Positions 4,272-7,052 of a stretch of DNA of 32,761 bases are shown piece after piece. This stretch comes from an uncultured candidate division WWE3 bacterium (GTDB taxonomy: Bacteria > Patescibacteriota > WWE3 > UBA101185 > UBA10185), in NCBI GenBank assembly GCA_903879985.1, contig CAIRNR010000004.1, positions 1-32,761 on the forward strand. Reading direction: 5' to 3'. The notes beneath the pieces are model-generated. The model was not told where the DNA came from and made no database searches. It saw nothing but the letters and a program-made list of their open reading frames with translations. How positions within the stretch are numbered: position 1 is the stretch's first letter; each line of letters opens with the position of its first letter. A program made the translations under genes and the position numbers.

Positions 4272-4661
4272 TTAATTTTTACTTCTAATCTCTTCAGCTA
4301 AATCTAAAAGTTCTTCCGCCGACGGTTTTTCTTTTAACTGTTCTTTGTAGTTTTCGTAAACAGGATATAACTTTGTGTGCAAATGACTGACTTCTAAACC
4401 TTCGGCTTGCATAAAAACCCACTCAACGCCTAAGCCTTTTTCTAAAAACTTTGCCGCCTGTTTTGTTGCCAAAATTAGCTCGCAAATATCTTTGTCGTCG
4501 TTGTTAAATAAATATGAAGGTTTGTGTGCTTTTGGTATCACCACAGTCATGCCTTTAACCTTTGGACTTGTATCCAATATGGCCATGTGAGTTTCGTTTT
4601 CCCAGATTATGTTTGCGGGAATTTCGCCTGATGCAATTTTACAAAATATGCAGTTTTCCAT
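4272..4661 (-). CDS. HIT family nucleotide-binding hydrolase/transferase with variant triad
   Basis: 129 residues. The N-terminus has the usual CIFCKI zinc-type Cys pair and ANIIWEN, followed by the VVIPKAHKPS strand. The histidine triad reads SHLHTKLYP: the first two His are present, including the middle His that is the nucleophile in HINT-type enzymes, but the third is Lys. The family hydrolyses or transfers nucleoside monophosphates from substrates such as AMP-amidates or dinucleoside polyphosphates; the actual substrate is unknown. It follows the methyltransferase gene by 14 bases on the same strand and is probably co-transcribed. A TAGAAT sits exactly 6 bases before the ATG, suggesting an additional leaderless start. 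No Shine-Dalgarno. Confidence 0.85.
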   Translation of the reverse strand: MENCIFCKIASGEIPANIIWENETHMAILDTSPKVKGMTVVIPKAHKPSYLFNNDDKDICELILATKQAAKFLEKGLGVEWVFMQAEGLEVSHLHTKLYPVYENYKEQLKEKPSAEELLDLAEEIRSKN

Positions 4662-4675: not shown

Positions 4676-5356
4676 TTACCGCGCAAGCTTTTTAAATATC
4701 AGGTATTTATTTGATTTATTATCTTTGCCGTCAGCTTCCAATTTTTCTACAAGTTCAACGTCGTAATTTGTAGAAATATCGTTTAATTCTTTTTCGGTAA
4801 ATTTATGCGCATATCTTTCGGTTTCAGGCTTTTTGTCCCACCCCAAAATGTAGTCACCTTCATCAGGTAATGTTTTGAGAACTTTTTCTGCCTTAAAGTC
4901 CCAAAAGGTTAAAACAAGTATGCCTTTTTCTTCTAACAGCGCAATCACGTCGTGCAGCCACTTTTCTCTAAACTCTTTGCCTGGAATGTGATGCATAAGC
5001 CCAAACACAACTATAAAGTTATATTTATCTTTTAAGCTTTCCAAGTTACCAAACACGTCTACATCAATAAATTTACATTCAGGATTTTTTGATTGGGCTT
5101 CTGATAATAACTCTGCGTTGTTGTCTATGCCCGTGTATTCAAATTTCTTACTAGTGTTTTCCTTTAGAAAATTTAAAAACCTTCCGTTGCCGCAGCCAAT
5201 ATCCAAAACCTTTGGTTCGGGGAGGTCTTCAAAAAAATTCACTACCCTACCCCACCCTTTCCAGTTGCTCTGACGTGTTTTGCTGAAATGCGTAGCAACT
5301 GATTGGTAAAATTTGGTATTTAAGGCTAAAATCTGTTTTATTGTGGAATCATTCAT
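4676..5356 (-). CDS. Class I SAM-dependent methyltransferase, Trm9/ALKBH8-like
   Basis: 226 residues. SAM motif I is VLDIGCGNGRFL (50-61), followed by an acidic GIDNN strand end, FIDVDVF (motif II-like) and GLMHHIPG. The N-terminal FYQSVATHFSKTR (17-28) followed by W matches the signature of Trm9/ALKBH8 methyltransferases, which in eukaryotes esterify cm5U at tRNA position 34 to mcm5U. It lies head-to-head with Elp3, the enzyme that builds the cm5U group, which supports this reading. ATG 5356 is chosen because the ATG at 5365 lies inside a perfect TATAAT (5369-5364) whose end is 7 bases from 5356. The longer frame to 5635 would run through Elp3. It is followed by the HIT gene. Exact substrate is inferred. 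Confidence 0.75.
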   Translation of the reverse strand: MNDSTIKQILALNTKFYQSVATHFSKTRQSNWKGWGRVVNFFEDLPEPKVLDIGCGNGRFLNFLKENTSKKFEYTGIDNNAELLSEAQSKNPECKFIDVDVFGNLESLKDKYNFIVVFGLMHHIPGKEFREKWLHDVIALLEEKGILVLTFWDFKAEKVLKTLPDEGDYILGWDKKPETERYAHKFTEKELNDISTNYDVELVEKLEADGKDNKSNKYLIFKKLAR

Positions 5357-7052
5357 TCTGACCATTATAGAGCAAATATCAAAACTTCCGCCTAATTCCC
5401 ACGAAAAAGTGTGGAAGATACTACATAAGGACGGCAAAGACCTTTCTAAAACCGAGGTTTTAAAGGCGTACAAGGCTTTGGTAGCAAACGGTGGTATAAA
5501 GTTATCTCTTAAAGCTGAAAAGGCGTTCTTAGCCAATATAAAGACTAAAAATACACGTACAATATCAGGTGTTACTCCCGTTACAGTTTTAACAAAGCCA
5601 TTTCCTTGCCCAGGCAAATGTATTTTTTGTCCCAACGATTATCGTATGCCCAAAAGTTATTTATCAAGCGAACCCGGTGCGCAAAGAGCTTTTGCAAACA
5701 AATTCGACCCTTATATGCAAACTTATAACCGTTTGTTGGCATATAAAAACATGGGCCACGGCACGGACAAAGTTGAACTTATTGTTTTAGGTGGAACTTG
5801 GTCGGCCTATCCAAAGGAATATCAACGCTGGTTTATAAAAAGATGCTTTGATGCAATGAACGACTTTGATCCAGAAAATACAGTTGAACGTGTAACTTTA
5901 GAAAGTGTTATGCCCTATTCTGAGGAAGATTTAAAGCAAAATGAAGGTTTGGTAAGTTATAACAAGGTTGTGGCAAAAGCTATGACTTCTCGTTTGCACG
6001 CAAGTCAGGAATCAAGTACGTGGGAAGAAGTTGAAGTTGCGCATAACGTTAATGAAACGTCACGTATTCGTTGTGTTGGATTAGTTATCGAAACTCGCCC
6101 CGACGAAATAAACGAAGAAGAAGTTATAAATATTCGAAGGCTTGGTGCCACTAAGGTTCAGCTTGGTGTTCAAAGTTTAAATGATAAAGTTCTGAGTTTA
6201 AATAAGCGTGGCCACGATGTTGCACAAACTGCTTTGGCTTTTAAATTGTTGCGCCAAGCCGGTTTTAAGATTCACGTTCATTGGATGCCTAATTTGTATG
6301 GTTCTAACCCGGAAATGGACAAAAAAGATTTTGTTAAATTATTTAAAAACCCAAAATTCAGACCTGACGAATTAAAGATTTACCCATGTTCATTAATAGA
6401 ATCAGCCGAGCTTTTTGATTATTACAAAAAAGGTTTGTGGCAGCCTTATACCAATGAACAGCTAATTGATGTTTTGAGTTTTTGTTTGTCTCATGTGCCA
6501 AACTATTGCAGAGTAACACGAGTTATTCGAGATATTTCATCTGAAGATATTGTTGTTGGAAATAAACTTACTAATATGCGCCAAATCGTTGAGGAAGCTG
6601 TTAAAAAATCTGGTGGCACTTTAGACGATATTAGGTCGCGCGAGGTAAGGGGAAGGCTTGTGGAGTCATCTGAGCTTAAATTGCGAACTACTCGATACAC
6701 CACTACAAATTCTACGGAATATTTTTTCGAATATATTTGTGATGATAACGATATCGTTGGTTTTTTAAGATTGTCTTTACCAAAAGATATCGTTTGTTTT
6801 ATTAGCGAGTTAAGTGGCGTGGCAATTATTCGCGAAATACACGTTTATGGTGAAACAGTTAACATCGGTGACAAGGAAGACGGTAAGGCACAGCACTTAG
6901 GTTTGGGAAAATCTTTAATAAGTGAAGCAAAGAAGTTGGCAAAAAAGCATGGGTTTGCGGAGCTCGCTGTAATTTCTTCGATTGGTACGCGTGAGTATTA
7001 TAGGAAGAATGGCTTTGTTGATGGAGTTTTGTATCAGTCGCTATCGTTATAA
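5343..7052 (+). CDS. elp3: Elp3-like tRNA wobble-uridine carboxymethyl-forming radical SAM / acetyl-CoA enzyme
   Basis: 569 residues from GTG 5343. A TTG at 5313 would add 10; both are uncertain because no ATG is available. The radical SAM centre is CPGKCIFCP, spacing Cx3Cx2C, Cys at residues 89, 93 and 96, preceded by the Elp3-typical TISGVTPVTVLTKP. The barrel continues with VLGGTWSAYP, IETRPDEI, LGVQS and HWMPNLYGS. The C-terminal part is a GNAT domain with QHLGLGKSL and GTREYYRKNGF. The family makes the 5-carboxymethyl(-amide) group on tRNA U34 from acetyl-CoA. A TAAAAT lies 10 bases before the GTG. The 5' end overlaps the divergent methyltransferase gene by about 14 bases. An intrinsic terminator follows. 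Confidence 0.92.
   Translation: MESFILTIIEQISKLPPNSHEKVWKILHKDGKDLSKTEVLKAYKALVANGGIKLSLKAEKAFLANIKTKNTRTISGVTPVTVLTKPFPCPGKCIFCPNDYRMPKSYLSSEPGAQRAFANKFDPYMQTYNRLLAYKNMGHGTDKVELIVLGGTWSAYPKEYQRWFIKRCFDAMNDFDPENTVERVTLESVMPYSEEDLKQNEGLVSYNKVVAKAMTSRLHASQESSTWEEVEVAHNVNETSRIRCVGLVIETRPDEINEEEVINIRRLGATKVQLGVQSLNDKVLSLNKRGHDVAQTALAFKLLRQAGFKIHVHWMPNLYGSNPEMDKKDFVKLFKNPKFRPDELKIYPCSLIESAELFDYYKKGLWQPYTNEQLIDVLSFCLSHVPNYCRVTRVIRDISSEDIVVGNKLTNMRQIVEEAVKKSGGTLDDIRSREVRGRLVESSELKLRTTRYTTTNSTEYFFEYICDDNDIVGFLRLSLPKDIVCFISELSGVAIIREIHVYGETVNIGDKEDGKAQHLGLGKSLISEAKKLAKKHGFAELAVISSIGTREYYRKNGFVDGVLYQSLSL
5364..5369 (-). promoter_or_regulatory. TATAAT -10 box of methyltransferase-HIT operon
   Basis: Perfect TATAAT on the minus strand, 7 bases before ATG 5356. 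It overlaps the next ATG upstream (5365) and so excludes it as the start of the usual transcript. Confidence 0.5.

Follow-up and report, generated by a model that had tools for sequence, protein, structure and literature searches.

The eukaryotic route to 5-methoxycarbonylmethyluridine (mcm5U) at the wobble position of tRNA (U34) comprises two catalytic steps, that of the Elongator complex, whose catalytic subunit is Elp3, and that of the methyltransferase complexes Trm9-Trm112 and ALKBH8-TRMT112; in yeast, Trm9 methylates 5-carboxymethyluridine (cm5U) (PMC5372719, PMC6367351). An archaeal Elp3 has been shown to form cm5U in vitro (PMC13315578), and the archaea Haloferax (HVO_0574/HVO_1032) and Sulfolobus have a stand-alone Elp3 together with a putative Trm9, the two genes being clustered in Sulfolobus, where the linkage was pointed out in 2008 (PMC2584109, PMC5372719). 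Most bacteria, according to reviews, modify U34 via MnmE/MnmG (PMC7663514, PMC5372719). Here, we analyzed a 32,761-nucleotide stretch of DNA (the window) from an uncultured candidate division WWE3 bacterium, whose assembly is 1.01 Mb in size and 97.8% complete, and in which a gene for Elp3 lies head to head with a gene for a Trm9-like class I S-adenosylmethionine (SAM) methyltransferase. This arrangement had been recognized at 4676-7052 in a sequence-only reading of the window; the coordinates hold, and the phenomenon is wider than that reading stated.

Bacterial counterparts of the pathway have been described in part. The Elp3 of Dehalococcoides mccartyi, which is also bacterial and stand-alone, carries the motif CPGKCI(F/Y)C and has a solved structure, and it is viewed as an isolated case (PMC7663514, PMC6367351), whereas the Dehalococcoidia-like genomes described below have a divergent neighbor encoding a second Trm9-like subtype. 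A 2020 review placed bacterial Elp3 in Dehalococcoides, with xcm5U (cm5U-type modification) there lacking direct evidence (PMC7663514), and a 2017 review regarded bacterial relatives of Trm112-dependent methyltransferases as undetectable (PMC5372719). No description of a bacterial Elp3/Trm9-like pair was found among open-licence papers.

The locus shares with the eukaryotic system homologous catalytic subunits for both steps, namely Elp3 and an enzyme with the fold, signature, and lid of Trm9. It differs in that no other Elongator genes lie alongside Elp3 within the window, to which this check was confined, no Trm112 was found, the genes form a divergent pair, the position of the yeast Trm9 residue Tyr243 is Ala or Cys, and thiolation would be carried out by the bacterial MnmA. 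The archaeal systems, compared by description, likewise combine a stand-alone Elp3 with a Trm9-like enzyme, but most archaeal groups have Trm112, sometimes fused to the methyltransferase (PMC5372719).

The two genes probably form a bacterial wobble-uridine module. Elp3 would use SAM and acetyl-CoA to carboxymethylate U34 at C5, yielding cm5U34; the Trm9-like methyltransferase would then esterify the carboxylate with the methyl group of SAM, yielding mcm5U34; and MnmA would add a 2-thio group on the Lys, Glu, and Gln UUN tRNAs, yielding mcm5s2U34. Such a module would take over from MnmE/MnmG, and it appears to function without Trm112. The reactions, their order, the tRNA specificity, and the independence from Trm112 are what we infer from the patterns described below.

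Divergent Pairing of Elp3 and the Methyltransferase

The genomic evidence directly establishes the divergent linkage and co-occurrence of the two genes, alongside the homology of both proteins and the MnmG replacement pattern. In a set of 76 related Candidate Phyla Radiation (CPR) genomes, 39 were scored as having Elp3 (38 above the cut-off, plus G016, in which the gene is broken by contig ends). The methyltransferase occurs in 31 of these 39 and in 0 of the 37 genomes without Elp3 (Fisher p = 3e-14), a count that leaves out a 42-bit match in G053 (without Elp3) and a weak match in G044 (with Elp3). Orientation could be assessed in 28 genomes, given that the locus is cut by contig ends in G016 and the two genes are on separate contigs in G051 and G073, and it is divergent in all 28: in 26 genomes the two genes directly adjoin each other head to head, and in G040 and G055 they are separated by gaps of ∼1.4 and 3.3 kb.

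The same arrangement recurs in named genomes, where Elp3 is present at 57 of 80 loci, in every case upstream and on the opposite strand, and in at least seven phylum-level groups. These divergent loci belong to Chloroflexota (20), Myxococcota (7), Minisyncoccota (5), and Acidobacteriota (3), with further cases in WWE3, Parcubacteria, Dojkabacteria, TM6, Peregrinibacteria, Nealsonbacteria, and Ignavibacteriota. One cultured member of the Actinomycetota, the gut bacterium Ellagibacter isourolithinifaciens DSM 104140, also has the divergent pair, and neither a full MnmG nor Trm112 was found in its genome. The start codons of the pair are often no more than tens of bases apart, and short or overlapping spacing occurs in relatives as well.

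A sample of 121 Chloroflexota genomes includes 24 with a Trm9-like gene, of which 13 encode members of the methyltransferase family of the window (at least 196 bits; 12 with a divergent Elp3) and 11 encode a second, more distant subtype. This second subtype, characterized by an RYYHLF lid and by FSRNIC close to the end of the protein, occurs in genomes of 1.4-2.2 Mb (L212, L214-L221, L223, and L226), has Trm9 as its top relative in the Protein Data Bank (PDB; 7.5e-15), and faces Elp3 head to head in all 11 genomes, which brings the divergent pair to 23 of the 24 genomes. Judging by their size and their Elp3, the 11 genomes are probably Dehalococcoidia, and the Elp3 of D. mccartyi may have a comparable Trm9-like neighbor. 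Separately, ∼18 Chloroflexota loci (L047, L052, L054-L056, L208, and others) have a Trm9-like gene with no Elp3 within ∼4 kb, the range examined.

The pairing, on whose retention in relatives the sequence-only reading made its proposal depend, is thus kept well beyond close kin. Flanking genes of the window are kept in at most 2 of the 80 distant loci, so general synteny offers no explanation for it, and outside the close family the pair has no constant third companion gene. Furthermore, the Elp3 distances correlate with those of the methyltransferase (r = 0.83 over 52 pairs; 0 of 2000 permutations).

Replacement of MnmG

With MnmC or MnmL/MnmM, the bacterial MnmE-MnmG system modifies the same tRNAs at the same position as is proposed for the pair, leading to the 5-aminomethyl-type uridines (c)mnm5U34, but its enzymes (a GTPase and an FAD enzyme) are unrelated; the genome of the window lacks them, and in Chloroflexota they and the pair exclude one another. 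In the genome of the window, mnmG (TIGR00136) has no match and mnmE (TIGR00450) has just a 25-bit P-loop fragment. With trm112 also missing (see below), all three genes that the sequence-only reading had singled out for a genome-wide search are absent. MnmA, in contrast, is present (G000 C7:518864-519946; TIGR00420, 391 bits, cut-off 237), and the 36 tRNA genes of the genome include those for Lys UUU, Glu UUC, Gln UUG, Arg UCU, and Gly UCC.

Among the Chloroflexota, none of the 24 genomes that carry a Trm9-like gene encodes MnmG, versus 55 of the 97 others (p = 5.5e-8, shared ancestry not corrected for). Within the CPR set, three of the 76 genomes have MnmG, the same three have a full-score MnmE, and none of them has Elp3. 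Taken alone, this set does not give a significant exclusion (0 of 39 genomes with Elp3 vs. 3 of 37 without; p = 0.11), because MnmG is likewise missing from most of the CPR genomes that have no Elp3, and it is the Chloroflexota set that carries the point. Full-length MnmG was identified in 2 of 21 methyltransferase-bearing named genomes, an Omnitrophota without an adjacent Elp3 and one Ignavibacteriales. Missing data in draft genomes could account for some of the MnmG absences, but not for absences at this rate. In about half of the 76 CPR genomes, Elp3 and MnmG are both missing.

Identity of the Two Proteins

Judged by its homology, the 226-residue protein METHYLTRANSFERASE (5356-4676) is Trm9-like. 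Its top phmmer match in the PDB is Trm9 of Yarrowia lipolytica (5cm2_Z, 1.2e-8), which also ranks first with a profile of 24 relatives (1e-22, 84 bits; runner-up 55) and with a profile of 81 relatives (2.8e-24, 89 bits; runner-up 63). The alignment with Trm9 reaches across the C-terminal lid, whereas most other PDB matches do not extend past the SAM-binding half. An AlphaFold model (mean confidence, pLDDT, of 95) has a class I fold with a two-stranded lid (strands 168-173 and 176-184), and with this model Foldseek returned 5cm2_Z first (3.6e-12; template modeling score of 0.77 by target length), by a narrow margin. In the reverse direction, the protein is the sole match of a yeast Trm9 query in its genome (5e-10), which holds three other Methyltransf_11 proteins, none of them matched. 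Over the 76 genomes the best 17 matches of this query all belong to the methyltransferase family of this locus; in two of the genomes, G042 and G009, another protein ranked first.

In a tree of 50 proteins, Trm9 is nested within the Elp3-linked enzymes and set apart from generic methyltransferases (92/81 and 93/93 at the forks). The data do not reject a single clade of all Elp3-linked enzymes and Trm9 (p = 0.215), and they come close to rejecting a placement of Trm9 with the generic methyltransferases (approximately unbiased test, p = 0.054). Trm9 being first by phmmer, profile, and Foldseek, no firm grouping with non-tRNA families emerged, which agrees with the initial suspicion. The protein matches no NCBIfam family at its cut-off. 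CmoB and CmoA, which are SAM-fold enzymes acting on U34 (in the synthesis of uridine 5-oxyacetic acid, cmo5U34), give weak profile matches (27 and 20 bits vs. cut-offs of 209 and 193), and the protein is a member of neither family; UbiG, UbiE, and other named methyltransferases score far under cut-off. Because the Trm112 activator was not found, we use the term Trm9-like and do not describe a Trm9-Trm112 holoenzyme.

Conservation was assessed in an alignment of 109 bacterial relatives of the methyltransferase. The segment FYQSVATHFSKTR, which precedes SAM motif I and had been singled out as Trm9-like from the window alone, is a signature of the family, with Y17, F24, and R28 near invariant. 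Residues that are near invariant and are the same in Trm9 are R28, H122, H123, W152, D168, W173, R181, Y182, H184, and E190. In the lid motif, R181 is conserved in 108, Y182 in 101, and H184 in 100 of the 109 relatives, with position 183 occupied by C, V, Y, A, or F; N216 is present in 100.

The gene on the plus strand is, from its predicted product, clearly Elp3, and the motif and acetyltransferase domain attributed to it at the outset are both present. The protein scores 490 bits against TIGR01211 (curated cut-off 350), and above cut-off in Pfam for the radical SAM domain (PF04055, 49.7 bits), the radical SAM C-terminal domain (PF16199, 62.5 bits), and GNAT (PF00583). It contains CPGKCIFC, and the lysine of TDKVEL aligns with the trigger lysine of D. 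mccartyi, Lys77 (5l7l chain numbering taken as native). The CX3CX2C spacing was considered as a mark of paired Elp3 and dropped, because unpaired CPR Elp3 and D. mccartyi Elp3 carry it too; the motif of M. infernus Elp3 is of the CX4 type.

Evidence Against the Module and Alternative Explanations

A number of observations weigh against the proposed module. Trm112 (PF03966) has no match in the whole genome, such that the lack of a Trm112-like partner noted in the window holds genome-wide as far as this model detects, and yeast Trm9 and ALKBH8, like all characterized eukaryotic Trm9, depend on Trm112 (PMC5372719). The fold match by itself is not decisive, because generic methyltransferases rank just behind Trm9 in Foldseek by a small margin, and Trm9 sits on a long branch in the 50-protein tree. 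Seven CPR genomes (L181-L187) have Elp3 but no methyltransferase alongside; these may halt at cm5U or employ another second step. The tested bacterial Elp3, that of D. mccartyi, is weakly active (PMC7663514). Lastly, yeast Trm9 requires the active-site residues R29, H115, R241, Y243, and N271 (PMC5372719). With yeast numbering carried over via Y. lipolytica Trm9, the equivalences suggested by alignment are R29 with R28, H115 with H122/H123, and R241 with R181, all of them kept, and N271 probably with N216, a match that lies in a stretch outside the coverage of the yeast alignment; the position of Tyr243 is occupied by A183 in this protein and by Cys in most family members. The two-step, eukaryote-like modification put forward in the sequence-only reading is supported by homology, linkage, and MnmG replacement, and its enzymology stays a hypothesis, with one of the five active-site residues changed.

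It is conceivable, though unlikely, that a Trm112-like activator is needed and is too diverged for the Pfam model, an explanation that bears solely on the partner and can hold alongside the module. Beyond the eukaryotic precedent, the genome encodes small CPxC...CxxC proteins, and PF03966 is above cut-off in 10 of the 21 methyltransferase-bearing named genomes. However, the small CPxC proteins resemble ribosomal or zinc-ribbon proteins, and PF03966 is above cut-off in only 2 of the 76 CPR genomes, yet is found in 8 of 14 control genomes. In addition, archaeal Trm11 of some species is active without Trm112 (PMC5372719). Since Trm112 was not found in the genome, the methyltransferase appears to be independent of it.

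The altered Tyr243 position bears on a more doubtful alternative, in which the methyltransferase acts in the Elp3 pathway but the end product is not mcm5U, the ester being converted onward, e.g., to 5-carbamoylmethyluridine (ncm5U), or the methyl group being placed elsewhere on U34. Linkage, co-occurrence, and MnmG exclusion would suit any step after Elp3, and ncm5U is known from an archaeon (PMC5372719). Against this, the remaining Trm9 lid and active-site positions are kept, and no third gene accompanies the pair beyond the close family.

Less probable still is that Elp3 in these bacteria forms a product other than cm5U, which the methyltransferase then serves. The very weak activity of D. 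mccartyi Elp3 would allow for this, as would the lack of xcm5U measurements in bacteria (PMC7663514), but none of the catalytic motifs is disrupted (CX3CX2C, the counterpart of Lys77, and GNAT), and bacterial, archaeal, and eukaryotic Elp3 share a fold and tRNA-triggered acetyl-CoA hydrolysis (PMC6367351). A generic small-molecule or other methyltransferase lying next to Elp3 by chance is very hard to credit: the general Methyltransf_11/23/25 models are its best Pfam matches and many class I structures are near in the fold search, but the cross-phylum divergent linkage, the 31 of 31 co-occurrence, the correlated distances, the way in which the gene and MnmG exclude each other, and the outcome of the reverse search with Trm9 all speak against it.

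Organization of the Locus

The features of the gene pair are listed in Table 1. The GTG at 5343 is the likeliest start of Elp3, giving the tabulated overlap with the 5′ end of the methyltransferase gene; a TTG at 5313 is possible and would give an overlap of 44 bp. The overlapping divergent starts suggest shared regulation of the two genes. Scanning the region shared by the two starts for promoters and terminators returned nothing usefully above chance. Nearby lies a HIT-family gene (4272-4661, minus strand), which 12 of 28 close relatives also have in the vicinity of the methyltransferase, against 2 of the 80 distant loci.

Table 1. Coordinates of the Elp3 and methyltransferase genes and their motifs in the window.
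Feature	Position	Strand	Remarks
Trm9-like class I SAM methyltransferase gene, 226 aa	4676..5356	-	ATG 5356, stop 4676-4678; Methyltransf_23 58 bits; 5cm2_Z top PDB match
Elp3 (radical SAM + GNAT), 569 aa from GTG 5343	5343..7052	+	TIGR01211 490 bits; PDB Elp3 matches to 1e-105
Overlap of both 5′ ends, 14 bp, head to head	5343..5356	.	Assumes Elp3 start at GTG 5343
N-terminal signature FYQSVATHFSKTR, residues 16-28	5273..5311	-	Y17, F24, R28 each kept in 106-107 of the 109 relatives
SAM-binding motif I, VLDIGCGNGR, residues 50-59	5180..5209	-	Near invariant across the 109 relatives
Trm9-type lid motif R-Y-A-H, residues 181-184	4805..4816	-	RYCH or RYYH in the family; RYYH in yeast Trm9
Elp3 [4Fe-4S] motif CPGKCIFC (CX3CX2C)	5607..5630	+	Aligned with D. 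mccartyi CPGKCIYC
Elp3 GNAT/KAT domain	6708..7016	+	PF00583 25.6 bits, cut-off 20.7

Implications

The bacterial pair is a variant of a known pathway and not new chemistry. The nucleoside that it would make, mcm5(s2)U34, is regarded as eukaryotic and has been proposed for archaea. We consider it somewhat likely that several lineages (CPR/Patescibacteria, Chloroflexota, Myxococcota, Acidobacteriota, and some Actinomycetota) have swapped MnmE/MnmG for a Trm112-free Elp3/Trm9-like module making this nucleoside, and that eukaryotic Trm9 may be a branch of a prokaryotic, Elp3-linked family; the pair thereby bears on the origin of eukaryotic Trm9. The cultured E. isourolithinifaciens DSM 104140 is a practical organism for tRNA nucleoside analysis, and a two-protein, Trm112-free system would provide a simple model for a pathway linked to human disease. 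That the pair is common in several phyla, in place of MnmG, suggests an overlooked bacterial version of the eukaryotic and archaeal pathway.

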